IMG/VR virus record: IMGVR_UViG_3300042320_000015
Coordinates: 1 to 24,578 of that record
DNA: 24,578 bases
Strand: one strand, 5' to 3'
Source: a virus
The notes beneath the pieces are model-generated. The model was not told where the DNA came from. It did not search any database and saw only the letters and a list, made by a program, of their open reading frames with translations. Position 1 is the first letter of the stretch. Each line of letters opens with the position of its first letter. Below, piece after piece: positions 6,122-24,578 of the stretch. A program made the position numbers and the translations under genes.

Positions 6122-9100
6122 TCAGCGCCCTCTCATGCCAATGCGGCTTCTAGTAGCAGGGCTCTGTTGAATCTTATCGAGAGTCATGTTCATCCCACGA
6201 AGAGCACCGTCTTTTGCAGCCTGGCGACGAGTGGAAGCCATTGCTGCCTCTAGTTGATCCCTGCTGACGTATTCTACGCCGCCAATGTTGGTGCTCTCAA
6301 ACTTCATGGAAAGAATAGGCGCCATCGCCTGTATTGGGCTCATGGTGTTCATTGCTTCGCGCAGGGAGGCTGATTGATCGTTCATTTTCACGGGGATGGA
6401 GCGACCGTCAGGCAGGGGCACAATGGCTTCGTTGTAACGACCTTCTCCAACCATTCCGAGCGTGGGGCCATTCACCACTCCACCATTGGCAAAGAACTTC
6501 AGTCCAGTATTGAAGTTCCAAGGAATGCCACTTCCGCCGCTCATCGCAGCAGCACCTCCGCCACCACCAAACAAACCGCCAAGGCCGCCCAGAGCGCTAA
6601 AGCCGCCCAATGCACTGCCCAGGCTCATGGCGATAGAGCCAATGCCGCCAAGCACGCCAGACACGCCACCTTCCTTGATTTGGCTGATGCCTGCCGTAAT
6701 GCCGACAATGGAACTGGCCGCAATGCCCACCGCAGAGACGGTCTTGCCAAGGTTTTGCTGCCAAGTGGTTGTAGCAGTCGCGCCTTTGCGGGCTTCCTCG
6801 ACAAGCGATGAAGTGACTGCAGACGTGTTGGCATTGAATTGCTCCATTGCCTGTCCCATGCCTCCCAGTGAATCTGGGAACTGCCATGCCTGTTCAGACG
6901 CTTCTTGCATAGCCTTTCCGCTCATTTCAAAGGCTGGCGCATTTAGTACATCGCCCATCAAAGGCGATGGCAGAGAAGCGTTGCCTCCAAAGGCTTGTCC
7001 AGAGGCGCCAGCAGGGGTGCCTTGCAGTGCTGCCGTATTACGATCAAGGGCTGCAATTTGACGCTCCATAGCTGCAATGGTTTCAGCTCTCTGCTCTTCT
7101 TCGTTGGGCAGGCCAAAGACGTTGAGCAGTTGATCTTTGAAGAACTTTTCAACTGGCTTCATCGAGAAGTCGATGAACATTGTGAACACTTGCTTAGACA
7201 GACTTTCCTGCATCCGCTTAGCAGCTTCTTTAATGTCACCTCCGCTCATAATGTCAACGAACAAGCCCTTGTAGCTTGACAGCACGCCATCAACGGCATC
7301 ATTCACTAAGGCGGCGGCTTCTTCCATAGCCTTCATCGCGTCAGCGTTTTTCAACGCCAAAAGCGAAGCCTCCAGTACTTCTGCGTTGTATGCGGCTTGC
7401 TGCGTCGTTACGGATTCCAGCGCTTTTGTGTGTAACGCGATTCGATCCTGTACTCCCTTTAACTCGGCCTCGTAGAGAGCCTGCATTTCTCCTCCTTTCT
7501 TGACCTGCTCTGCAAGCGTCTTCTCTTGAACTTCCAACTCTGTAATTTTCTGCCTATAAGTTTCCGCTTGCAATGTGCCAGCAATGTCGGCTCGCGTGAT
7601 TTGCTCGCGAGCTTGGATGTACTCCTCTGGAGCGCCTTGCAGAAGGAGGGCATTGCGTTCTTTTAGCAACTGCGCATCAAGACGCAGTTGTTCAACGGGG
7701 AAGATTTCTCCCACTTGTTGCGCAAGAAGTGCGCGGGTTTGCTCAAGGTCAACCCTCGCCCCATTGACAACTTTCCCTAGCTCAATGGCTAAGACGTTTG
7801 CCCTCTCCATTTCGGCCAGTTCAACGCTGAACTCAGCACCTTGTTCGGCCCTAGCAATAGACTGCCTAGCACCAGAGGCGGGCCTCTTCATGCCACTAAA
7901 CTCAACGTGGCCGCCGTGAGAGCCTGGGTAATCGTGGATGTTCCAGCCATACTGGGCGCCATGTCTTTTAATCCATTCCAAAGACCGCCCATGTATGTCC
8001 ATTGCAGTGCCGGCTAGGTGTCGAGAACCCGTGGCACCTCCAACCGCTGCATTTTTACGGGCCGAGCGCTGGGAGCTGGCAATGTCACTTCCCCTTACCT
8101 GTCCACCGGACGCTGTAATCATCGCCGCAAAGGCTTCTGCTGCCTCCCTGCTGAATACAACAGGACGACCCTGCGCATCTTTAACACCTGGCACCGTATA
8201 GCCGCTTCCCGTTTCAGGATGGATCACTGGCACCGCTACTCCCAGCGTGGCCACAGAAGCAGGCGGGGCTGCGCCAGTCACGGAGGGAAGCACTGGAGCT
8301 GCGGGAGGCGTCAAGAACTGCCTTGCTTGACGTTGAATCTCGGGAGGCTGCGCCTGGCTACCGCCTGGCAGCGATGGCCAAGTGCCTTGGCTCAGGATCG
8401 CGTCAGCATCATCAAACCTTCCCGCGACAATCGCCTCATAAGCGCGTGGCCGATGCCGCTTGATCCACCCTTCAACTGCAGCAGCCGACTCGCTGTAGTT
8501 TGCCGATCTTGAGTTTTTCCCTCCAGAAGCAGCAAGGGCTTCTTGATGGAATGGTCCCTTTGTCTGGAAGTAGCCCATTGCTCCAGACCCTTCCGCATTG
8601 GGCACGTTCCTGATGCGTGTCTCAAGGAAAGCAAGTCGCCTTAGGTAGTTCTGAACATTACCCTGTCCGCCCATCGCCGCCGCACCTTCTGCGGGCAGCA
8701 GTGCCGCCGCTTGTTGACTTGCCGCCCGCAGCGCCTTGGCCGCATTGATTTTCATGCCAGCTTCCGTGACGCGAGCAGTGGCCTCAGAAAGACGCCTGGT
8801 GCTACGCATTTGTATTTCAAGAAGCTCTTTTTCATTGCGCTTATTCTTGGCATGTATTTCATTCATGCCAGCCATTTCATAATCAAACTTTGCATCCATG
8901 AGCGATTTTTCCAGCTCAAAACTTTGCTCTGCTAGTTCGCGCATTTGCTCGTAGCGGAGCTTGTCTTTATCGTTCTGGAACTCAGCAGTTGCAGTGATTA
9001 GCTGTCCTTGTTGTCGAGCATATTGCTCCGCAAGGCGCTGTTGCTCTGCGGCAAGTTTTGCGCGATCTTCTTCAGCTTTTCTGGCTGCCTTGTCTGGATC

Positions 9101-12100
9101 ACCAGAAGGCTGTAGGTCAATGGGGGTGAGGGCTTGCTGTTTGCTTTGATTGGCCACTTGAACGGCGGTTTTCAACTCATCCGCTGCGTTTCCTGCGTCA
9201 CTTAACGCTTCACGCCAAGCAATTTCAGCTAGTTGTAAATTGGCACTAGCCTGCTGTTGTGTGATGTCAGGCGATGCCCCGACAAGAGGAACGCCTCCTG
9301 CAGCCCGTTGCACAAAACCGCCGGGGCCACGGGCTAGTCCTGCGGCTAATCCACTGCGTTGAAGCCTGGCGAAATCCTCTTCCGATACCTGCTGAGGGCC
9401 TTTCGCGGCAATCGTCGCCAAGATGTCGCGTGACCTCTTGAAGGACTGCACTCTCTCTTCCGCTTCACCTAGCTTCCGTGTTATAGGCTCAGTCATGCCA
9501 GCAACGGCCATCTCGTTCAATTCATCACGTGCCTTCCTAGCCCTTGCCGCAGACTCTGCCAGCTTTTGATTTACTCTGTCAATCGAATTGGCGAGTATTT
9601 CAAAAGCAGTCCACACGGCCGCTACGACAATGCCAGCAAGAGCCGCCTTTGCAGCCGCAGACGTGGCAATAAGAACTCTGAGCTTCACAATGGTCGCTTG
9701 AGTTTGAGTGGCAAGCAGGACCAATCCTCTCACCGCTGCCACGATTCCAGCCTTCGCCATAAGCTGAAGTGCGGCAGTTACAAGCGCAACCTTCGCGGCA
9801 AAGTTGGCCAAGAATCCACCAACGGGAGTATTGATGAATCGAGCAATTTGCTCCAATGCGAACAAAATGAACCTGCCCAGCTCCGCAAATGTTGGCGCCA
9901 GGCTCATAATCACATCGCCTAGCGCCCTGCCAATTTCAGTGATCTGCTGGAACACCGTATAAATGGCTAGTGCTTGCCCGCTCAATGCGCCAGCGGGGCC
10001 AGCGTTGCCTTGCGCTGCAGCAGCGAATGCTTGCACTGCTTGCGTTGCACTTGCAACAGCCTCAGAGATCAATGGGAAAGCCTGTTGTGCAACAATGTTT
10101 ACAAGCGGCTCAAATGCCTCGTACAGCCTCAGCACGCTATTCTGCATGTCATTCAGCGCACCACGAAGAGTTTTGGCAGCACCAGCCGCACCTTGAGAAA
10201 AGTCTCGATTTAGCAGAATGCCTACATTATTAAGCACTTGCTGCATTGCCTTGCCCCTGAAAGCTCCGTCCTCCATCGCCTTGGAGAACTCAGGAATGTC
10301 CATTTGCGCTGCTTCTGCGAAAAGCGCCAATGCTCCAGGCAGCACGTCGCCCAACTGCCCACGCAGCTCTTCTGCCGTGATCTGCCCCTTGCTCGCCATC
10401 TGAGAAAGGGCGTATGTCACCCTGTCTACCTTGTCGGCACTCAAGCCGAATGTGGCAGCAGCCTTTGACACACCAGTGAACAGGTTTTGGATTTCTTCCG
10501 CGCCAAACCCTGCAGGCGCCATCGAGGCGTACATGCGGGCAAAGCCTTCCCTGATACTTGCCAATGGCACGGCAAAGCGATCCGCCAAATTGTCTAAGAA
10601 GGCAAAGGAACGGTCAGTCTCCGCAGCGGAGCCAGTGATGGCATTGAGCTGGTTGCGGATAGACTGCAGGGCGCTAGAAGCATCCAGCGCCTGACGCGGC
10701 AAGTCCATGATGAACGCCAAGCCCTTGTAAGCAGCGCCATACAGCAACACTTGTTTCGTAGCTTGCCCGAACTCTCCAGCAAGCTCCTCAATAGCACCAG
10801 CAAGCGGCACTCTTGCTTGACGAAGGTAACGGTCAGCTTCTCCTAGCGACTTGGCGAATCGACCACCAGCGAGGTAGCCAGAGGGAAGTGCGGTAGAAGG
10901 TCTTTCCCCGCCTCCTCCGTAAGGCGCAGGAGTCCGACCAACACCAGGGGGAAGTTGAGGTGGGCCGCCTCCACCAACGCCTTCTGCCATCACTGACAAG
11001 CCACGCGCCGCTGATCTTTGATACGCCTGTGCAATGCGATCTTGCACGGACATACCAGTAGCGGAAGGCAGTAATCCTGCGATCTGCCGACCACCCAACG
11101 CTGCCTGCATGGAAGTGCCAAGATCACGCACGTTTACGGAGCGCACTGCAGCATTCAACTCGGCTTTTATTGAATCGACAAAAGCATTGGCGGCTCCGCG
11201 TAGAGCTTCTTTTAGAGATGGGGAAAGAATGTCGCCAACAAGTCGCTTTTGCTCTGCGAATGACGTGCCGGGTAGTGCTGCAAAGTTTGCGCCAGGCGGC
11301 AGCGCCCTGCCAGTAGAGGATGGGCCAATGGGAGGGCGAGAGCTTGGCGGCACCTGAGCAGGCCAGTTGATCGCAGGAGGGGCAAGCCTCGCTCTTCGTT
11401 GTGCCGCAACCTGCGCCGGGTCCATGCCCAGCATGTGGAAGACGCCCCTGGCAAACGTATCCAACACTCGCTGCACGCCGCTCCTGTCTGGATTGCGCAT
11501 CACAGCCTGAGGATCAAGAAACTTCTTGATCATCTCCACCGACGCATCGGCAACAATCTTTTGAATGATGTTGCCCTTGTTTAGTTTGCTAACGCCAGAT
11601 ACATTCATCTGCTTAGCAATCTGCCTCAGTTGCTCATTCGTGAAGCCACCAGTCTCTAAGCGGGATTGAAGCTGGGAACGTCGAGCGGCTTCCGTGACGC
11701 CGCCGCCAGCCATTCGTGCCGCACCCATTGCGCTAATGGTTTGCATTCCACGCGCTACCTCGGCATCAATTTCTGCTTGCGTCTTGGCGCCGCCACGAAT
11801 TGCCGCTGATTGCAGATTGGCCTTTACGTCAATAGTGGTAGAACCAAGCTTTCTAACTACATCTGCCTTGAACTTGCTCGCGGCACTATCGGACAGTGGC
11901 TGCAGTCCCACGGGAAGCAGTATCTTGCCCCCTTGAGCCATGATGCCTCTGTAGACATCAGTGCGAATCTTGCGGGCTTCACGCTGACTGACTGCTGCCC
12001 TGCCACTAACAGGAATCTCTAGCTTTGTATCTTGCAGTGCCTCCAGCCTGTCTTTCAGTTTTTCTGCTTTCGCTATGGAAGCGTCAAGCTGAACGTCTTT

Positions 12101-12292
12101 AATTTTCAGCGTGAACGTTTTGCTGTTCAGAAAACGATCAAGAGCCTTGTATTGAGTGGCAATCAGGCGCCTGTCAAATTGCGTGCGCAGCGTAATTGGT
12201 TGCCCACCAAGCTGCGTGCCAATCGTTGAAATTTGCTGCCTGAGAAGAGCCAGGTCAAGACCAACTGATAGCCTCAGCTCAGGAGCGGCCAT
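6122..12292 (-). CDS. Tape measure protein with lysozyme-like and M15 peptidase-like domains
   Basis: A 2056-residue ruler that sets tail length and travels through the tail. The tape measure domain is at about residues 540-730 (ITGSAAETDRSFAFLDNLAD, KGQITAEELRGQLGDVLPGA). Hydrophobic helices at about 830-905 could enter the host membrane. Long charged coiled coils lie at about 1070-1190. A lysozyme/transglycosylase-like domain has E1224 in FLETRIRN and Q1243 in GAMGYFQTKGP. An M15-type metallopeptidase domain follows with H1425 and D1432 in SRHLAGTAMDIHG and H1462 in HVEF. The C-terminus has FFANGGVVNGPTLGMVGEG near 1940, common in tape measures. Both enzymatic parts would open peptidoglycan during DNA entry. 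No clear Shine-Dalgarno sequence is seen before the ATG. Confidence 0.92.
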   Translation of the reverse strand: MAAPELRLSVGLDLALLRQQISTIGTQLGGQPITLRTQFDRRLIATQYKALDRFLNSKTFTLKIKDVQLDASIAKAEKLKDRLEALQDTKLEIPVSGRAAVSQREARKIRTDVYRGIMAQGGKILLPVGLQPLSDSAASKFKADVVRKLGSTTIDVKANLQSAAIRGGAKTQAEIDAEVARGMQTISAMGAARMAGGGVTEAARRSQLQSRLETGGFTNEQLRQIAKQMNVSGVSKLNKGNIIQKIVADASVEMIKKFLDPQAVMRNPDRSGVQRVLDTFARGVFHMLGMDPAQVAAQRRARLAPPAINWPAQVPPSSRPPIGPSSTGRALPPGANFAALPGTSFAEQKRLVGDILSPSLKEALRGAANAFVDSIKAELNAAVRSVNVRDLGTSMQAALGGRQIAGLLPSATGMSVQDRIAQAYQRSAARGLSVMAEGVGGGGPPQLPPGVGRTPAPYGGGGERPSTALPSGYLAGGRFAKSLGEADRYLRQARVPLAGAIEELAGEFGQATKQVLLYGAAYKGLAFIMDLPRQALDASSALQSIRNQLNAITGSAAETDRSFAFLDNLADRFAVPLASIREGFARMYASMAPAGFGAEEIQNLFTGVSKAAATFGLSADKVDRVTYALSQMASKGQITAEELRGQLGDVLPGALALFAEAAQMDIPEFSKAMEDGAFRGKAMQQVLNNVGILLNRDFSQGAAGAAKTLRGALNDMQNSVLRLYEAFEPLVNIVAQQAFPLISEAVASATQAVQAFAAAAQGNAGPAGALSGQALAIYTVFQQITEIGRALGDVIMSLAPTFAELGRFILFALEQIARFINTPVGGFLANFAAKVALVTAALQLMAKAGIVAAVRGLVLLATQTQATIVKLRVLIATSAAAKAALAGIVVAAVWTAFEILANSIDRVNQKLAESAARARKARDELNEMAVAGMTEPITRKLGEAEERVQSFKRSRDILATIAAKGPQQVSEEDFARLQRSGLAAGLARGPGGFVQRAAGGVPLVGASPDITQQQASANLQLAEIAWREALSDAGNAADELKTAVQVANQSKQQALTPIDLQPSGDPDKAARKAEEDRAKLAAEQQRLAEQYARQQGQLITATAEFQNDKDKLRYEQMRELAEQSFELEKSLMDAKFDYEMAGMNEIHAKNKRNEKELLEIQMRSTRRLSEATARVTEAGMKINAAKALRAASQQAAALLPAEGAAAMGGQGNVQNYLRRLAFLETRIRNVPNAEGSGAMGYFQTKGPFHQEALAASGGKNSRSANYSESAAAVEGWIKRHRPRAYEAIVAGRFDDADAILSQGTWPSLPGGSQAQPPEIQRQARQFLTPPAAPVLPSVTGAAPPASVATLGVAVPVIHPETGSGYTVPGVKDAQGRPVVFSREAAEAFAAMITASGGQVRGSDIASSQRSARKNAAVGGATGSRHLAGTAMDIHGRSLEWIKRHGAQYGWNIHDYPGSHGGHVEFSGMKRPASGARQSIARAEQGAEFSVELAEMERANVLAIELGKVVNGARVDLEQTRALLAQQVGEIFPVEQLRLDAQLLKERNALLLQGAPEEYIQAREQITRADIAGTLQAETYRQKITELEVQEKTLAEQVKKGGEMQALYEAELKGVQDRIALHTKALESVTTQQAAYNAEVLEASLLALKNADAMKAMEEAAALVNDAVDGVLSSYKGLFVDIMSGGDIKEAAKRMQESLSKQVFTMFIDFSMKPVEKFFKDQLLNVFGLPNEEEQRAETIAAMERQIAALDRNTAALQGTPAGASGQAFGGNASLPSPLMGDVLNAPAFEMSGKAMQEASEQAWQFPDSLGGMGQAMEQFNANTSAVTSSLVEEARKGATATTTWQQNLGKTVSAVGIAASSIVGITAGISQIKEGGVSGVLGGIGSIAMSLGSALGGFSALGGLGGLFGGGGGAAAMSGGSGIPWNFNTGLKFFANGGVVNGPTLGMVGEGRYNEAIVPLPDGRSIPVKMNDQSASLREAMNTMSPIQAMAPILSMKFESTNIGGVEYVSRDQLEAAMASTRRQAAKDGALRGMNMTLDKIQQSPATRSRIGMRGR

Positions 12293-12330: not shown

Positions 12331-12798
12331 CTATTCTGCATTCTCACGCGAGGATGCAGTCTTGATCTCTTCTGCCAACATGCCAATCAACCTTCCATCC
12401 ATCCGTCGAGTTTTGAGCAGTTGACGCAAAATACGCAGGCTCTCTTCCGTCACGCCCGTATCCTTCTGCATCTTGCGCGTATCAAACGGCAGGAAGTCAG
12501 CAGGGCTCACTCTTGCCTTCTTGCCACCCAGCGCACCAACCACCACTGCGCCAAGTTTGGCAGTAGCAATGTTGTCAATGTTATGGCGATTCACGTCATG
12601 GCGCTCAATCCACTTCAGCGCCTTCACTACGTCCTTGGTTCTTTGCAGGCCAAAGTTACGCGCTGACCAACGATCATCCCGATATTCCGATGCGGAAAGT
12701 CGGAAATAAATGTCGTCCCAGCGCGTAAGGTTCTTTAGCGTGCGTCTAGCTTGTTTTTCTAAACGTTCGACGGGGCTTAAGCCTTCGTCGTCTTCGCT
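12331..12798 (-). CDS. gpT-like frame, expressed as frameshift fusion
   Basis: Second chaperone frame, with no good start of its own at its beginning. Read after a -1 slip at 12798-12804 it adds 155 residues to the first 169 residues of the gpG-like protein, giving a 324-residue G-T fusion. The joined part begins SEDDEGLSPVERLEKQARRT and continues through DDIYFRLSASEYRDDRW, VVKALKWIERHDV and VTEESLRILRQLL. In lambda-like phages the T part binds the tape measure or tube subunits and the fusion is made at a few percent. A GTG at 12627 (preceded by AAGGA at short distance) could start only the last 98 residues, but the conserved-looking open sequence before it argues for the fusion. Confidence 0.75.
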   Translation of the reverse strand, partial: SEDDEGLSPVERLEKQARRTLKNLTRWDDIYFRLSASEYRDDRWSARNFGLQRTKDVVKALKWIERHDVNRHNIDNIATAKLGAVVVGALGGKKARVSPADFLPFDTRKMQKDTGVTEESLRILRQLLKTRRMDGRLIGMLAEEIKTASSRENAE

Positions 12799-13304
12799 TT
12801 TTTTGCTGCTCCAGCCTCCGCGAGTTCAGCTTGCTGCTCGTCAGCAATAAACTCAAGCGTGGCAGCAATCAGCTTGCGCCCCATTGCCTTTGTGTCGTCC
12901 AGCGACCAGTCTTCAGTGCGCTGCCACTCGCCGTCCATCATCGCCTCACCACGGCACCGCATGAAAGTGGTGACAATGCGAGCATTGCTCACTTCCACGC
13001 TGCCCACACTGTTCAGCATCCCCAGCGTCTCTTCCGTGAAGTCGCTGAGCAAATCCATCTCTCCCATGCTTGCACCGCCCTGCAGCATGTCAAAGGCTTC
13101 CTCAAGGCTCACGCCTTTACTGGCGGAAATCTTCTTAGCCAGTTGCACAGCGCGGATGGTGGCCTGTGACTGAGCACGGCTTGCTTCCTCTTGTTCAATG
13201 GATTCGGCAACAAGCCAGCCGCCATACTTGCGCAGCCGCAACCCAGGCAGCAGCTCAAAGTATTCAGGCTCTTCCCCTTGAAGCAGGAAACTATACTTGC
13301 TCAT
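12777..13304 (-). CDS. Tail assembly chaperone (gpG-like)
   Basis: A 175-residue soluble protein just before the tape measure gene, the place of lambda gpG. The N-terminus is beta-like (YSFLLQGEEPEYFELLPGLR), followed by helices with SRAQSQATIRAVQLAKKISA and DLLSDFTEETLGMLNSVGSV. It ends in the Ala/Lys-rich tail GAAKKAKTTKA. Such proteins coat and keep soluble the long tape measure and recruit tube subunits, and are absent from the virion. Its last codons contain an A7 slippery run through which a longer fusion is made (separate entries). Confidence 0.75.
   Translation of the reverse strand: MSKYSFLLQGEEPEYFELLPGLRLRKYGGWLVAESIEQEEASRAQSQATIRAVQLAKKISASKGVSLEEAFDMLQGGASMGEMDLLSDFTEETLGMLNSVGSVEVSNARIVTTFMRCRGEAMMDGEWQRTEDWSLDDTKAMGRKLIAATLEFIADEQQAELAEAGAAKKAKTTKA
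12798..12804 (-). promoter_or_regulatory. Slippery heptamer A AAA AAA for -1 frameshift
   Basis: Seven A residues read as GCA AAA AAA GCG in the chaperone frame, so the heptamer is in the exact X XXY YYZ phase. A one-base slip backward moves translation into a frame that is open for 155 codons. The zero-frame stop TAA lies at 12779-12777, 18 bases downstream. Confidence 0.8.
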
Positions 13305-14436: not shown

Positions 14437-15015
14437 TCAGTTGGGGGCAACAGGAATGATGCTGCCAGAGCTGGTGGCACTCTGATGGATGCCAATGCGG
14501 CTGCGGCTAACGAGATCAAAGGTGACTTCCACAAGATTGTCAGCAGGGTAGTTCTCGTTGTAGTTCATCACGGCAGCGCAGAAAGCCACACGGTCGTAAT
14601 AGAAAGTGGTGCCACTCACGCCAAGCTGCTTGTTGATTTCGACATACACCTCATGGGTTTTGTCGTAGCGTGAAGCGCTGATCACTTGGAACGCTTCATC
14701 AAAGCTGTTGGGCAGGAACACCGTGCCATCAACGTCCTTCTGAAAGTAGGAGGTAATAGAGGCAGTGGCTTGACTGGTGACGATCACGCTGTCAGCGAAA
14801 CCGCCGCCGCCAAGCAGGTAAAACTCTTGGTTGCCATCGTTAAAGGCCACAGAAGCCGTGGTGGCAGCCTGCAGGGTGAAGAGGGTGGGAGCCCCGCTCA
14901 CGGTGAACGTAGCGCCGCTCTGCGTGATCACAGGACGACCAGAGGCCAGGGGAATAGCGCCAACACGTACAATAACGTCTTGGCTCTTAACCAATTCAGT
15001 GGGGTGGTAGAGCAT
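14437..15015 (-). CDS. Putative major tail tube protein
   Basis: A 192-residue beta-rich protein with ATASITSYFQKDVDGTVFLP, then HEVYVEINKQLG, YYDRVAFCAAV and LVEVTFDLVSRSRIG. The length, the composition and the C-terminal run of strands fit a tail tube subunit. A GAGG Shine-Dalgarno sequence with good spacing precedes the ATG, and the gene is followed by an intrinsic terminator, as is common after an abundant tail protein. Its place before the tail-completion genes is a little early for a tube gene, and two other tube-like proteins exist at the left end, so assignment is tentative. An alternative is a connector-associated structural protein. Confidence 0.5.
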   Translation of the reverse strand: MLYHPTELVKSQDVIVRVGAIPLASGRPVITQSGATFTVSGAPTLFTLQAATTASVAFNDGNQEFYLLGGGGFADSVIVTSQATASITSYFQKDVDGTVFLPNSFDEAFQVISASRYDKTHEVYVEINKQLGVSGTTFYYDRVAFCAAVMNYNENYPADNLVEVTFDLVSRSRIGIHQSATSSGSIIPVAPN

Positions 15016-19531: not shown

Positions 19532-20109
19532 TGCTTTTTGCGGCGACTCTCAACCATCTTAATGATGCGACTTGCCCACGCCCTACCCGCGTCCGATCCC
19601 CAGAGCAACCAAGCGATTCGGCCAGCATCATCCTCGCCTCCGCTCTTGTTCTTTTCGTGCCGAGAGAAGAATGCCGCCATGCGCTTGATCGTTTCGTAGC
19701 TCACTGCCTCTCCGTTGGCCAAGCTTGTCGCCCTAGCCACACCACTACCAATGCCTTGCTTGCCTGCCTCTTGCGTGGTCAGACCACCTTTACCGTGCTT
19801 CTTGCGCAGCTCCAGTCCTCTGCGAGCAGCAGAGCGAACAGACGATGGAGGGGAAAATGATTCAGAGTCGCCCCTGCCGTCTTCTTCATAGTCATCATCT
19901 CCGCCAAGCTCCTTCATGAAGGCGAGGTAGTATTCATCGCCCATGTCTTTTTTGGACTTGCGCGACATGCCAGCTTCTGAGAGGGCAATGGCGAGAGCGC
20001 GTCGGGGGTCAACAACCTTCTCCCCACTGCTGCTTTTGAGCTTGCCGCTTTTGAACTCACGCAAAACAAGCCGAATCTTGGCTTGCTGCTTTTTGTCAGC
20101 CATTGTCAC
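19528..20109 (-). CDS. Basic phage protein with DUF6496-like N-terminus
   Basis: About 193 residues from GTG 20109; ATG 20103 is an equally good or better start, with TGGG at normal distance. The N-terminal part LREFKSGKLKSSSGEKVVDP (about residues 16-35) followed by RRALAIALSEAG resembles the small DUF6496 domain. An acidic linker follows, then a compact domain from about residue 88 with RRGLELRKKHGKGG, FFSRHEKNK and IAWLLWGSDAGRAWA, a pattern I recognise as recurrent in phage head-region proteins without a firm function. No catalytic motif is obvious. Position between the sugar cassette and the protease suggests a minor virion or assembly protein; this is inference. Confidence 0.65.
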   Translation of the reverse strand: MTMADKKQQAKIRLVLREFKSGKLKSSSGEKVVDPRRALAIALSEAGMSRKSKKDMGDEYYLAFMKELGGDDDYEEDGRGDSESFSPPSSVRSAARRGLELRKKHGKGGLTTQEAGKQGIGSGVARATSLANGEAVSYETIKRMAAFFSRHEKNKSGGEDDAGRIAWLLWGSDAGRAWASRIIKMVESRRKKQ

Positions 20110-20732
20110 ACCCAGTCATAAAGCGCCACCTTTGACCTGGCGCAGTCTTCCACAATCGTAGCTTTGGTCTGCAGAATCTCGTTGTGACGTGACTTACCTT
20201 GCCAGAAGCGATCATGCCACTCAACATAAATTGTTTTCACCCATCGCCCCACATTTTCGACTTCCAGCAAACGCGGCAATACAGTAAACTCTGCTCCCTC
20301 AATGTCGCACTTGATATAGATGGTCGCTTCGTCGTCCGCGTCGATGATTTCTTGCACCACTCGCTTTACGTCCATTGACTCCACGTAAAGCTCTTGGCAT
20401 TGGTGCCGCTCGATTTCCGCCAGTGGCTCCATCACGCAAGTAGACGCAGCGCTATAACCAGGCAGCCACTTGAAAGTGATTAGGGCATCTTCTGTGCCAA
20501 TAGCAGCATGAAAAGCCTGAAACGAAAGAAAGCGTTTTTCAAGGGAGGGAATGGCGGACTTATTTGCCTGTACTGCATGAGCAGACGGCTCAAACGTGAG
20601 AACATGCCAGTCATAGGGAGGCTCCTTGCCAAAAAATAGTTGCTTTTCAAACGTAAGCAAGCCGCTTTCGCAACCTGAATACTTCCCGCCATTGTCTAGG
20701 TAGTGGGTGCCAAGGTCCAGAAAGTATTTCAC
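20106..20732 (-). CDS. FkbM-family methyltransferase
   Basis: A 208-residue SAM-dependent methyltransferase of the FkbM type. The SAM-binding first strand is FLDLGTH (residues 4-10), the second acidic strand is LTFEPS (45-50), and the family block IYIKCDIEGAEFTVL is at about 138-152. FkbM enzymes usually O-methylate sugars or polyketides, and their place next to glycosyltransferases often means capping or decoration of a glycan. The start is GTG at 20732, overlapping the stop of the sugar transferase; its own stop overlaps the GTG of the next frame. This tight coupling argues that the three enzymes are one unit. Substrate unknown. Confidence 0.82.
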   Translation of the reverse strand: MKYFLDLGTHYLDNGGKYSGCESGLLTFEKQLFFGKEPPYDWHVLTFEPSAHAVQANKSAIPSLEKRFLSFQAFHAAIGTEDALITFKWLPGYSAASTCVMEPLAEIERHQCQELYVESMDVKRVVQEIIDADDEATIYIKCDIEGAEFTVLPRLLEVENVGRWVKTIYVEWHDRFWQGKSRHNEILQTKATIVEDCARSKVALYDWV

Positions 20733-21439
20733 TGGTAAATCTGCCGATCTTGCCAGAGTTGATTGTAGTTGTTCGTACCCTTAGCCCCAAAAGCGGACAA
20801 GTCGCCACCTCCCGCAGGTTTGCCCCATGCAAGAATAGTTCCGTCTGGCAGAACGAAAGCAGTGTTCGTCTTGCTGTGAGTGGGTGTTAGCTGCAGGAAG
20901 TCGCCATAGACAAACGATGCCTGCTCGCCATTTTTTGCCAATGCTTGCCCTAGCACGGGAGTAGCAGTAGGGGACAATGGCGTGATGCCATAGTACCTGG
21001 TGGCCCAATTCTCCACCACTTGATCAATGGCATTAAGAAGCGCAGGATTGCCAGGCTTGGAAAACAATACTGCAGTCATGCACGCCCAGCAAGTGCCAGT
21101 AAACTTCTGAATCTCGCGGAACGCAAGGAAGTCAATGCGGTCGGCAAGCTCCACTGGTGAATGGAGCCTGATGGCAATGTCAAAGTACCAACCACCAACT
21201 GCGTAGAGGATGCAATAACGGCCAAGGTCAGCCTTGTTGGAATAGGAGCGAAGGCCGTCATAAGCCTTGACAACATTCCCTCCAAAGCGCTTAACAATGA
21301 ACTCTCTCAGTGTTTCGTTGTTGTAGCGAACATAGTCCGCACCAAGAAAGCCCTGTTGAACTGTGCTTGTCAATTGCTCCAGCGCAGGAGGCAGTTCTTT
21401 GCCGCCTTCATCAGTCAGAAAGATTTGCGAAACCTGCAT
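20729..21439 (-). CDS. DXD-type sugar transferase (Gly_transf_sug-like)
   Basis: About 236 residues. The core KADLGRYCILYAVGGWYFDI matches the conserved block of glycosyltransferases with a DXD motif (capsular polysaccharide/mannosyltransferase OCH1-like, GT-A fold), in which a nucleotide-sugar is bound through a divalent metal. Here the motif reads DIA (D87, A89 counted from the ATG), so the second aspartate is missing; activity or metal use may differ. I chose ATG at 21439 over the TTG at 21445, because AAGGTGA lies at normal spacing before the ATG. Its end overlaps the GTG start of the next gene by 3 bases. It probably acts with the preceding GT4 enzyme on the same acceptor (inference). 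Confidence 0.7.
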   Translation of the reverse strand: MQVSQIFLTDEGGKELPPALEQLTSTVQQGFLGADYVRYNNETLREFIVKRFGGNVVKAYDGLRSYSNKADLGRYCILYAVGGWYFDIAIRLHSPVELADRIDFLAFREIQKFTGTCWACMTAVLFSKPGNPALLNAIDQVVENWATRYYGITPLSPTATPVLGQALAKNGEQASFVYGDFLQLTPTHSKTNTAFVLPDGTILAWGKPAGGGDLSAFGAKGTNNYNQLWQDRQIYQ

Positions 21440-21441
21440 GA

Positions 21442-22665
21442 TCAATTCACCTTCACTGGAGCGCCAAAACCTTTGAACTCAGGAGCTGCAACGGCAGGCT
21501 TGAGCAATTCATTGATATAGCCCAGCATCTTGTTAGTGACATGCTCCCAAGAGAATTGATCCTCATGAATGCGTGAATAGCACCACGCGCCATCATCGTT
21601 CATCTTGTCTCGATCTTCGTAGTATTCCGTGAGCAGTTCGGCAAGGTGATCGGGTGATACTTGCCCGCGCTCCAGTCCATAGTTCCTGTCGGTTTCCCAG
21701 CTTTCAATGCGAATGCGAGGCACGTCGCTAAAGATTTCCTTCAGGCTTGTGTGGTCTGGCACTAGCTGCGGACGGCCAGTGGCGGCATGTTCAGTGTTGA
21801 CCAAGCCCCAGCCCTCACCCAAGCAAGTGTTGATACCCACGTCCACTGCGTTATACACCTTGTTGAGCTGCTCAATGGGAAGACAGTTATGCGTGGAGAA
21901 ATTCGGGCTGGTGAGAATGAGCTTGCCCGCAGGGTCGTAGCCTGCGTCCCTAGCCACACGTTTGAACAAAGGGATCAGTTCCCAGCCCATATCTTTGGCT
22001 CCCATGTTGAGCCACAGGCGAGCATCAGGCTTGTCTTTTGCAAACTTGATAAAGCCCTTGATGGTCAAGTCAATGCGTTTACGAGGCTGGTTCCTGTTGC
22101 CATTGAATACAATGAACGCATCATCTGGCACGCCAACATCCTTCCGGCATTGCTGCTTGTCAATGGGGAAGAACTTGGTAAAGTCCGTGCCATGGCCCAC
22201 AATTCCAACGGGACGCTCATAGCCCATCTTCACAATTTCGCCCTTGGCAAACTCTGTGTAGGTGACGAGCTTTTCCCATTTGTTCAGGGCAGGAAGTAGC
22301 TCAGGGAATAGTCCGTAGGAGTCGATGGGAGTGTAGACGCAGGTTTTGAAGCCTAGCTTCTCTTTCAGTGGCTCGATCTTATCAACAAGCGTGACCGCCA
22401 CCCAAATGTCATTGACAATAAACACCACGTCAGGCTGAATGGTTTGCACCAGTTCAGCAATGCGATGGGAACCGAATGGGTCGGAGCCATGCGCCATCGC
22501 CGGAAACATCTGACAATGCTGCTGCATTGGGGAAGGGTCCCCGTGATGATTGACGCACAGTGCAAACACGTCATGATCTTTGGCGAGGGCGGGAATGAGA
22601 TATTCGGCCACCCTGCCGAAGCCCGTCTGTACGCCAACGTCTCCGCAGTAGAGGATTCGTGTCAC
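21442..22665 (-). CDS. Glycosyltransferase, GT4 (GT-B) family
   Basis: A 407-residue retaining glycosyltransferase of the group 1/GT4 type, expected to move a sugar from a nucleotide-sugar to an acceptor in the cytoplasm. The N-terminal domain starts RILYCGDVGVQTGFGRVAE, a glycine-rich first strand and loop. The second Rossmann domain starts near residue 185 with VFNGNRNQPRKRID, the basic phosphate-binding region. The EX7E motif is GEGWGLVNTE (E284, E292) and is followed by HAATGRPQLVPDH. The start is GTG at 22665; no convincing Shine-Dalgarno sequence is seen. It lies 35 bases after the MuF-like gene and heads a three-gene sugar/methyl cassette. Acceptor unknown: virion proteins or host surface glycan are both possible. 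Confidence 0.85.
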   Translation of the reverse strand: MTRILYCGDVGVQTGFGRVAEYLIPALAKDHDVFALCVNHHGDPSPMQQHCQMFPAMAHGSDPFGSHRIAELVQTIQPDVVFIVNDIWVAVTLVDKIEPLKEKLGFKTCVYTPIDSYGLFPELLPALNKWEKLVTYTEFAKGEIVKMGYERPVGIVGHGTDFTKFFPIDKQQCRKDVGVPDDAFIVFNGNRNQPRKRIDLTIKGFIKFAKDKPDARLWLNMGAKDMGWELIPLFKRVARDAGYDPAGKLILTSPNFSTHNCLPIEQLNKVYNAVDVGINTCLGEGWGLVNTEHAATGRPQLVPDHTSLKEIFSDVPRIRIESWETDRNYGLERGQVSPDHLAELLTEYYEDRDKMNDDGAWCYSRIHEDQFSWEHVTNKMLGYINELLKPAVAAPEFKGFGAPVKVN

Positions 22666-22700: not shown

Positions 22701-23378
22701 TCACACGGGAGCATTAGGCGCTTGCTGACGGTAGAACTCCACTCGGCATTTGCACCGTGCCCTGCATTGACAACGCTGCCCTGGCATCGGGAGGGTGCCG
22801 ATGGGGACAAGGCCGCGAGCTGCGTAGGCTGGGCAATCAGCGCAGTGCCGGGCTTGTGGGTCGAGGATGCGGCGCATCAGTCCATAGCCTTCCGCTTGCT
22901 TCCGAAGCTCCAAACCCTGCCAGTAAGAGCCACGTACACTTTCAGCGTACAAGCTGATACGAGCAACAGCCATGGCAGGACTAGCGCGGCCAGCCAGAAC
23001 GTCATTAGCAAAGTCCTGTAGATAAGCGTATTCTGCACGAAGCCTTTGACCGATGCGGCCATATTCGACACTGCCCATACTGTCCTTTCCGCCATGGCCA
23101 ATGATTGCTGTCTGAATGTGAGCTGCCTTGATGGCTTCCCTGACGCTGCCTTGCCATTGCTCCAGCGTGATGCTGCCATCGGCCATCATCTTTGTAACGC
23201 GCCTGAGCGTAGTGTCCAGCCTGCCAATGCGGCCATCTACTAAGGCTTCAACAGCCTTCTGGCTCATGAACCGTCCTTTCTCGTTGCGGTAGCGTCCAGT
23301 ACGTTGGTCGTAAGCCCACGCAGCGTCCAGCCTAGTGGCCAGCACGGCTTGAGACAGCCCGCTTAGGTCATTCAGCAT
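22701..23378 (-). CDS. MuF-like minor head protein
   Basis: A 225-residue protein directly after the portal, the usual place for Mu gpF-type minor head (head morphogenesis) proteins. The N-terminal half is helical and charged. The C-terminal part has the MuF-like pattern of paired cysteines: HCADC (C179, C182), then PIGTLPMPG, then CQC and CKC (C203, C205, C209, C211). H178 and these cysteines could bind a metal. It carries no toxin domain of the kind often fused to MuF proteins. The start ATG overlaps the portal stop by 11 bases, so translation is probably coupled. The role in capsid assembly or DNA ejection is inferred from family and position. Confidence 0.75.
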   Translation of the reverse strand: MLNDLSGLSQAVLATRLDAAWAYDQRTGRYRNEKGRFMSQKAVEALVDGRIGRLDTTLRRVTKMMADGSITLEQWQGSVREAIKAAHIQTAIIGHGGKDSMGSVEYGRIGQRLRAEYAYLQDFANDVLAGRASPAMAVARISLYAESVRGSYWQGLELRKQAEGYGLMRRILDPQARHCADCPAYAARGLVPIGTLPMPGQRCQCRARCKCRVEFYRQQAPNAPV

Positions 23379-24578
23379 TGTCGGCCTCTAGCAGCTCTTT
23401 GAACTGGGCTGGAGCCTCTGCTTTCCATTGCTGCAGGGCCTCGGCAATGTCCTCTTCAGAAATGAGAGCCGCTTCGTCAACGCCGCCCAGTACCAAGCCA
23501 CTTGCCTTGATTGCTTCTGCATCTTCCTTGAAATACTCGGCAGTGGTCTTCTTGCCTTTGAAAGCTTTTTCCATGGAGCCGTGCTTGCGCTTGTAAAGCT
23601 CCTTGTACTTGCGCGTCACATAGGCTCCCGCCACTGCGCTGGGCCAAGTCTTGAATTTGCTCTTGGCGGCGGCAATCGCCTGTTGGTGAAGCTCTTTGTC
23701 CGTAAATTCCACGTCGCCGCGTTCATGCTCTAGGTCGCCTTCCAGAAATAGTCCAGCAGCGTCTTGGACTTCTCTGGAGCCGTCCATTGGCAGTGTGCCA
23801 TTCTCTTGATTTAATGGATCGCGTCCGCCAGGAGGCACAGCACCTCCCACTTTGGGAGCAAGCATTGCATCGTTGGCCTTGAGCGATGGGTCAAGGGCGG
23901 TTTCCATTGACCACTCAGAGCCCCCGTAACGTGCCTCTCGCACTTCTTGTGGATGGAGCACTCCCAGTTGCAGCATCCTGCCGTCCACGGCTGCCACGCG
24001 GGCTCTCACGTCGGCCTTTTCACGCTCATTCAGTTCAAACAAGTCATTGAAGGAGATTCTCCACGATTCGGGCAGTTCGCCATTGGTCGGCCCATTCTTG
24101 CTCAGCATGATCATTTCCATCAGCTTCTGCAAAGGCCGCTTGTAATGCGCTGCCTGGTAATCACCAAGGAACTTTGCAAAGTCTCGCTCTTCGCTTCTAC
24201 CAGTGGCACCAAGGCCGCTTGGGCTCTCGCCAAAGAGAATCGTATGGGGAATCTGTGAGGCGCCAATAATGTCAATGCGCAGCTTTTCCAGCACGTCGCC
24301 AATGCCGCTTAAGTTGCGTGTAACGTAATCAAGTTCCTCGCGCTCGGCGTCAATCGCATAGCCGCGATAGATGCTCTTGCTCATGTCATTCAACACCAAA
24401 CGCTGCCTCACATCACTCTCCTTTCCCGCAGCAAGCATTGTGCTCAGGCCGCGCAGCTTATGCACAAACACGTCAAACTCAACCAGCACTGTCGCCGCAG
24501 AATTGAGGCCAGTCCAATAGTGCCGGAAGCTGTCGTAGATGGTCTGCAAGCTGCTCATTCCCCACCCATAGTTCCTTT
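23368..24578 (-). CDS. Portal protein, DUF1073-type, 5' end outside window
   Basis: Portal subunit: forms the dodecameric ring at the capsid vertex through which DNA is packaged and the tail attaches. The first in-window ATG is at 24558 (396 residues to the stop), but the frame stays open to the window edge and reads RNYGWG before that Met. This suits the middle of a DUF1073 portal, so the N-terminal part is probably missing. The stretch IPHTILFGESPSGLGATG (about residue 103 from the ATG) is the most diagnostic part. From about residue 240 an acidic, charged C-terminal extension follows, containing FKTWPSAVAGAYVTRKYKEL, which resembles the small DUF5872 domain. The stop overlaps the MuF-like start by 11 bases. 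Family recognition is by eye; I am confident of portal, less so of the extension. Confidence 0.85.
   Translation of the reverse strand, partial: RNYGWGMSSLQTIYDSFRHYWTGLNSAATVLVEFDVFVHKLRGLSTMLAAGKESDVRQRLVLNDMSKSIYRGYAIDAEREELDYVTRNLSGIGDVLEKLRIDIIGASQIPHTILFGESPSGLGATGRSEERDFAKFLGDYQAAHYKRPLQKLMEMIMLSKNGPTNGELPESWRISFNDLFELNEREKADVRARVAAVDGRMLQLGVLHPQEVREARYGGSEWSMETALDPSLKANDAMLAPKVGGAVPPGGRDPLNQENGTLPMDGSREVQDAAGLFLEGDLEHERGDVEFTDKELHQQAIAAAKSKFKTWPSAVAGAYVTRKYKELYKRKHGSMEKAFKGKKTTAEYFKEDAEAIKASGLVLGGVDEAALISEEDIAEALQQWKAEAPAQFKELLEADNAE

Follow-up and report, generated by a model that had tools for sequence, protein, structure and literature searches.

Layout of the locus

The window, by which we mean the whole stretch of 24,578 nucleotides that was analysed, carries on its minus strand two overlapping reading frames immediately before the gene for a tail length tape measure protein (Table 1). 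The zero frame, encoding a putative lambda-G-like tail assembly chaperone (here G), ends with the codons GCA GCA AAA AAA GCG AAG ACG ACG AAG GCT TAA, and its run of seven A residues at 12804-12798, the sole A7 or T7 run on either strand of the window, forms the heptamer A_AAA_AAA in phase with this frame. Read from the A at 12798, the -1 frame continues AGC GAA GAC GAC GAA (SEDDE) and is open from the heptamer to the stop at 12331, and a shift at the heptamer would give a predicted fusion of 324 aa counted from 13304. The first ATG, GTG or TTG in the extension (here T) is its 58th residue, a GTG at 12627. An earlier note on this DNA had proposed a -1 frameshift here, with the A7 in exact slippery phase with the zero frame, a -1 frame open from there to 12331 and products of 175 and 324 residues; this layout and the predicted lengths were borne out. 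In-phase heptamers of the X_XXY_YYZ type are rare: the genes of the window contain 12 in 7686 codons, and the G bodies of relatives 4 in 7479. Given this scarcity we reject the idea that the A7 stands there by chance.

Table 1. Features of the predicted frameshift locus and its surroundings, in window coordinates
Feature	Coordinates	Strand	Remarks
Zero-frame ORF, putative lambda-G-like tail assembly chaperone (175 aa)	12777..13304	-	Conserved MSKYSF... start; precedes the tape measure gene
Slippery heptamer A_AAA_AAA, in phase with the zero frame	12798..12804	-	In-phase heptamer kept in 77 of 78 distinct relatives
-1 frame extension, putative lambda-T-like domain (155 aa + stop)	12331..12798	-	Open and conserved in all relatives
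GTG ORF (98 aa), covering the last two thirds of the -1 extension	12331..12627	-	Unlikely to be a gene of its own
Tail length tape measure gene	6122..12292	-	phrog_2335, E 5e-68; directly downstream of T
Shine-Dalgarno-like GGAGG, candidate stimulator	12815..12819	-	Ends 10 nt upstream of the heptamer
Hairpin CGACG..GGC(UUAA)GCC.CGUCG, candidate stimulator	12768..12790	-	Starts 7 nt after the heptamer; holds the zero-frame stop
Long stem inside the -1 frame	12649..12739	-	58-148 nt past the heptamer; synonymous-shuffle z -6.5

Conservation of the slip site and of the -1 frame

Scanning IMG/VR with the T alignment yielded 245 relatives and with the G alignment 300, and the best 80 of each were taken. 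The 78 distinct loci with both halves consist of Synechococcus phage S-CBS4, the sole match among the named phages searched, and IMG/VR contigs; a scan of bacterial and archaeal genome contigs gave no homologues. The earlier note had suggested looking for a conserved slippery site in relatives, and such a site is present in nearly all of them: in every distinct locus except one, T lies at -1 and the overlap carries an in-phase X_XXY_YYZ heptamer. The commonest heptamer is A_AAA_AAA, while G_GGA_AAA is found in one clade (L114, L124, L126, L139, L142, L144, L160 and L161). Both of these are contained in the G_GGA_AAA_AAA of L164-like sequences, and A_AAA_AAC occurs in L080 alone. The zero-frame stop falls 19-76 nt past the heptamer start depending on the clade, and the -1 arrangement is kept nonetheless. 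The exception, L031 (contig IMGVR_UViG_3300047557_002617), has kept the A7 and has about 23 nt fewer just upstream, a deletion that joins the G and T frames into a single frame of 317 aa (L031:2015-2968); this single contig could reflect either faulty assembly or a fusion that is constitutive in nature.

The genes on both sides are conserved as well. A tape measure match follows T in 64 of the 64 loci with enough sequence, and its start typically lies 23-43 nt after the T stop in the relatives. Upstream of G, a homologue of the window's 79-aa gene was found at all 72 testable loci, with the same overlap with G in 70.

In all 49 nonredundant sequences the -1 reading runs from the slip to the stop for about 155-160 codons, and no relative has a -1-frame stop between the slip and the position of the GTG. 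Modal identity is 0.73 for residues 11-56 of the -1 frame and 0.74 for residues 57-155, and the variable part is confined to the first ten residues, which lie mostly within the overlap. Over 14 pairs of relatives the pooled dN/dS was 0.065 for residues 8-57, before the GTG, and 0.086 for the remainder of the frame. The other two frames of the residue 8-57 stretch contain stops, with dN/dS of about 1 or above in nearly all computable pairs. In the variants nearest to the window the pre-GTG stretch carries 7-8 synonymous and no nonsynonymous changes, and its protein is identical. Judging from these substitution patterns, the pre-GTG part of the -1 frame is under strong purifying selection, with no start codon of its own. 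Either of two things would have counted against the proposal in the earlier note, namely a -1-frame stop in relatives before the GTG and a lack of conservation of the residues encoded at 12628-12795, and given the open frame, the conservation and the selection described here, neither was found.

The two halves differ in what they match. G has 57-94% identity to 29 relatives and no Pfam or PHROG match in the window, and the G proteins of relatives showed no consistent family match. T of the window matches Pfam Phage_tail_T (PF06223) at E 0.0013 with 19.5 bits, below the gathering score of 25.9, and is thus not filed as a member of that family. At E<0.1, 9 of 30 members of the T family match Phage_tail_T weakly (best E 0.0013), and sub-threshold matches to phrog_337 'tail protein' were obtained for 15 of 30. 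The AlphaFold models had mean pLDDT values of 69 and 61, a low to moderate confidence, and a PDB sequence search gave nothing of note. Searching viral structures with Foldseek gave two matches for T at 55-58% identity (131 and 97 residues), which are evident sequence relatives, and for G one match at E 5e-4 together with scattered weak tail-chaperone matches; because of the low confidence of the query model we do not rely on those for G.

RNA elements around the slip site

Across the family, pairing with the anti-Shine-Dalgarno sequence peaks some 6-18 nt upstream of the heptamer, and it exceeds what is expected from synonymous resampling (mean -6.9 versus -5.1 kcal/mol, Wilcoxon p 1.5e-4; -9.5 versus -4.9 in the window). 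The signal comes partly from Glu/Ala-rich coding, and taken singly 7 of the 49 sequences reach p<=0.1. The hairpin next to the heptamer in the window has a z of about -1.5 to -3.5, varying with the stretch that is folded. It is not universal, as S-CBS4 and several other relatives have none there, and the hairpins that other clades form in a comparable position are unrelated to it (GCCGGA/UCCGGC in L164, for example). We regard the Shine-Dalgarno-like site and the adjacent hairpin as candidate stimulators.

Further downstream, the stretch between the slip and 12640 folds with a z of -5.5 against dinucleotide shuffles, and with synonymous-codon shuffles in 105-nt windows the z of the window sequence goes down to the value given in Table 1 for the long stem. 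As a baseline, 241 windows in the window's other genes had a mean of -0.5 with sd 1.2, with one at -4.95. By the same synonymous-codon shuffles, L013, L037, L056 and L075 have values of about -4.5 to -6.5, and the average over the 49 relatives peaks at this stem (-1.7 versus about -0.5 elsewhere). The stem is absent from many relatives including S-CBS4, its pairing register differs by clade, and RNAalifold gave no convincing common structure for it in the broader clade. A search of Rfam gave no match. Comparison of the window with L013 shows a single compensated pair, and the stem has only slightly fewer third-position changes. Perhaps the stem is a selected regulatory element that tunes the G:GT ratio from a distance or hinders internal initiation within the T frame, which we consider rather unlikely and record as a lead only. 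We know of no such distal regulatory layer for phage tail chaperone frameshifts.

A probable lambda-type frameshift and the alternatives

The lambda G/GT frameshift takes place at G_GGA_AAG. The locus resembles this system in that a pair of overlapping genes precedes the tape measure gene, the first frame carries an in-phase X_XXY_YYZ heptamer close to its end and the extension lies in -1, and the G_GGA_AAA of the sister clade is nearly the lambda heptamer. It differs in that the window has A_AAA_AAA, with Shine-Dalgarno-like and hairpin candidates, and in that the gene upstream encodes an uncharacterised 79-aa protein, not an evident major tail protein. The likening to lambda G/GT in the earlier note stands for the layout, the predicted mechanism and the sub-threshold Phage_tail_T match, and not for the G half, which matches no family. 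Aligned directly with the family, lambda G and T gave hhalign probabilities near zero, in a comparison of low power as single lambda sequences served as templates.

Programmed frameshifting in E. coli dnaX, in -1 at A_AAA_AAG, involves an upstream Shine-Dalgarno-like element and a hairpin. The window is similar in its lysine-codon heptamer, with a Shine-Dalgarno-like element 10 nt upstream and a hairpin 5-8 nt downstream. A difference is that the dnaX shift leads to a quick stop, whereas the one predicted here would lead to the longer protein.

From these analyses we conclude that the pair almost certainly represents tail assembly chaperones of the lambda G/GT type, made by programmed -1 ribosomal frameshifting. 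In the mechanism that we infer, most ribosomes would read the zero frame and stop after 175 residues, giving the G-like chaperone, while a minority, with tRNA-Lys on AAA AAA, would slip back by one base at A_AAA_AAA and continue in the -1 frame into the G-T fusion of 324 residues. By analogy with lambda, whose frameshift product is made at a low, fixed ratio and whose G and T are both missing from the virion, G would coat the tape measure protein, the major tail protein would be recruited by the T extension, and the ratio of G to GT would therefore matter for tail assembly. For lambda a ratio of about 30:1 is given, and both parts have a role in building the tail (PMC5009743). The predicted slip is strongly supported, because nearly all of several dozen related viruses share the slip signal and the hidden frame, and on mechanism membership in the lambda G/GT type is well supported.

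A downstream gene translated on its own would require no shift, and indeed AAGGA stands 4 nt before the GTG at 12627 and the S-CBS4 record has a separate downstream ORF. However, the roughly 45 residues before this GTG are as conserved as those after it, are under purifying selection and lack a start codon, and only 14 of the 49 nonredundant relatives have a GTG at that column. The start of the 98-residue frame pointed out in the earlier note is therefore not a conserved one, and on these two grounds, upstream conservation and the want of a conserved start, we reject a separate T-like gene beginning there, to which we give very little probability. The single frame of L031 might suggest that the real gene is one frame and that the break stems from a sequencing error or marks a pseudogene. 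The same break, however, is seen in many separate assemblies as well as in the isolate S-CBS4, and the chance of either is negligible.

The A7 could also act on the polymerase, in which case a subset of mRNAs with an altered number of A residues would encode the fusion and the ribosomes would not shift. Most relatives do carry a homopolymer run, but the G_GGA_AAA clade and the A_AAA_AAC of L080 leave the polymerase a run of only four and six A residues respectively, and the phase of the heptamer, which is irrelevant to a polymerase, has been kept. Slippage during transcription is therefore improbable, since heptamers that are not homopolymers keep the phase. These differing heptamers (G_GGA_AAA and A_AAA_AAC) argue for tandem slippage of tRNAs and not for a chance run of A residues.

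Annotation of the family and other genes of the window

The family is cyanophage-like and divergent in sequence, and its predicted frameshift has been missed by public annotation. The orthologous pair in the only isolate, S-CBS4 gp032/gp033 (HQ698895), has an A7 in the same phase and a tape measure gene next to it, differing from the window in protein sequence (54-64% identity) and in lacking a strong adjacent hairpin. In the S-CBS4 record gp032, with a late start, and gp033, with a start inside the extension, appear as two unlinked hypothetical proteins, so that the extension is cut and its link to G is lost. In the literature covered, mostly titles and abstracts, we found no report of this frameshift in S-CBS4-like phages. 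The reading proposed here corrects the annotation of the tail chaperone pair for a poorly annotated family with well over two hundred matches in IMG/VR. It also yields a natural alignment, with several heptamers and candidate stimulators swapped at a single site, and this should be useful for studies of -1 frameshifting in cyanobacterial phages.

Some other features of the window were noted in passing. Another strong in-phase heptamer, G_GGA_AAG, lies within the ORF at 23368-24558 and is probably a chance occurrence. The ORF at 510-941 on the minus strand, which matches phrog_1407 (major tail protein, E 7e-5), sits after the large tail ORF, not at the usual place before the chaperone pair. For the ORF at 14437-15015, which lies in the head-tail region, no matching family was found. 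Residues 1404-1455, approximately, of the tape measure protein weakly match the endolysin/peptidase families phrog_894 and phrog_17373. Among the head genes, at 20106-22665, there are genes that by eye look methyltransferase- and glycosyltransferase-like, and the S-CBS4 annotation puts a glycosyl transferase and a methyltransferase in a comparable position.
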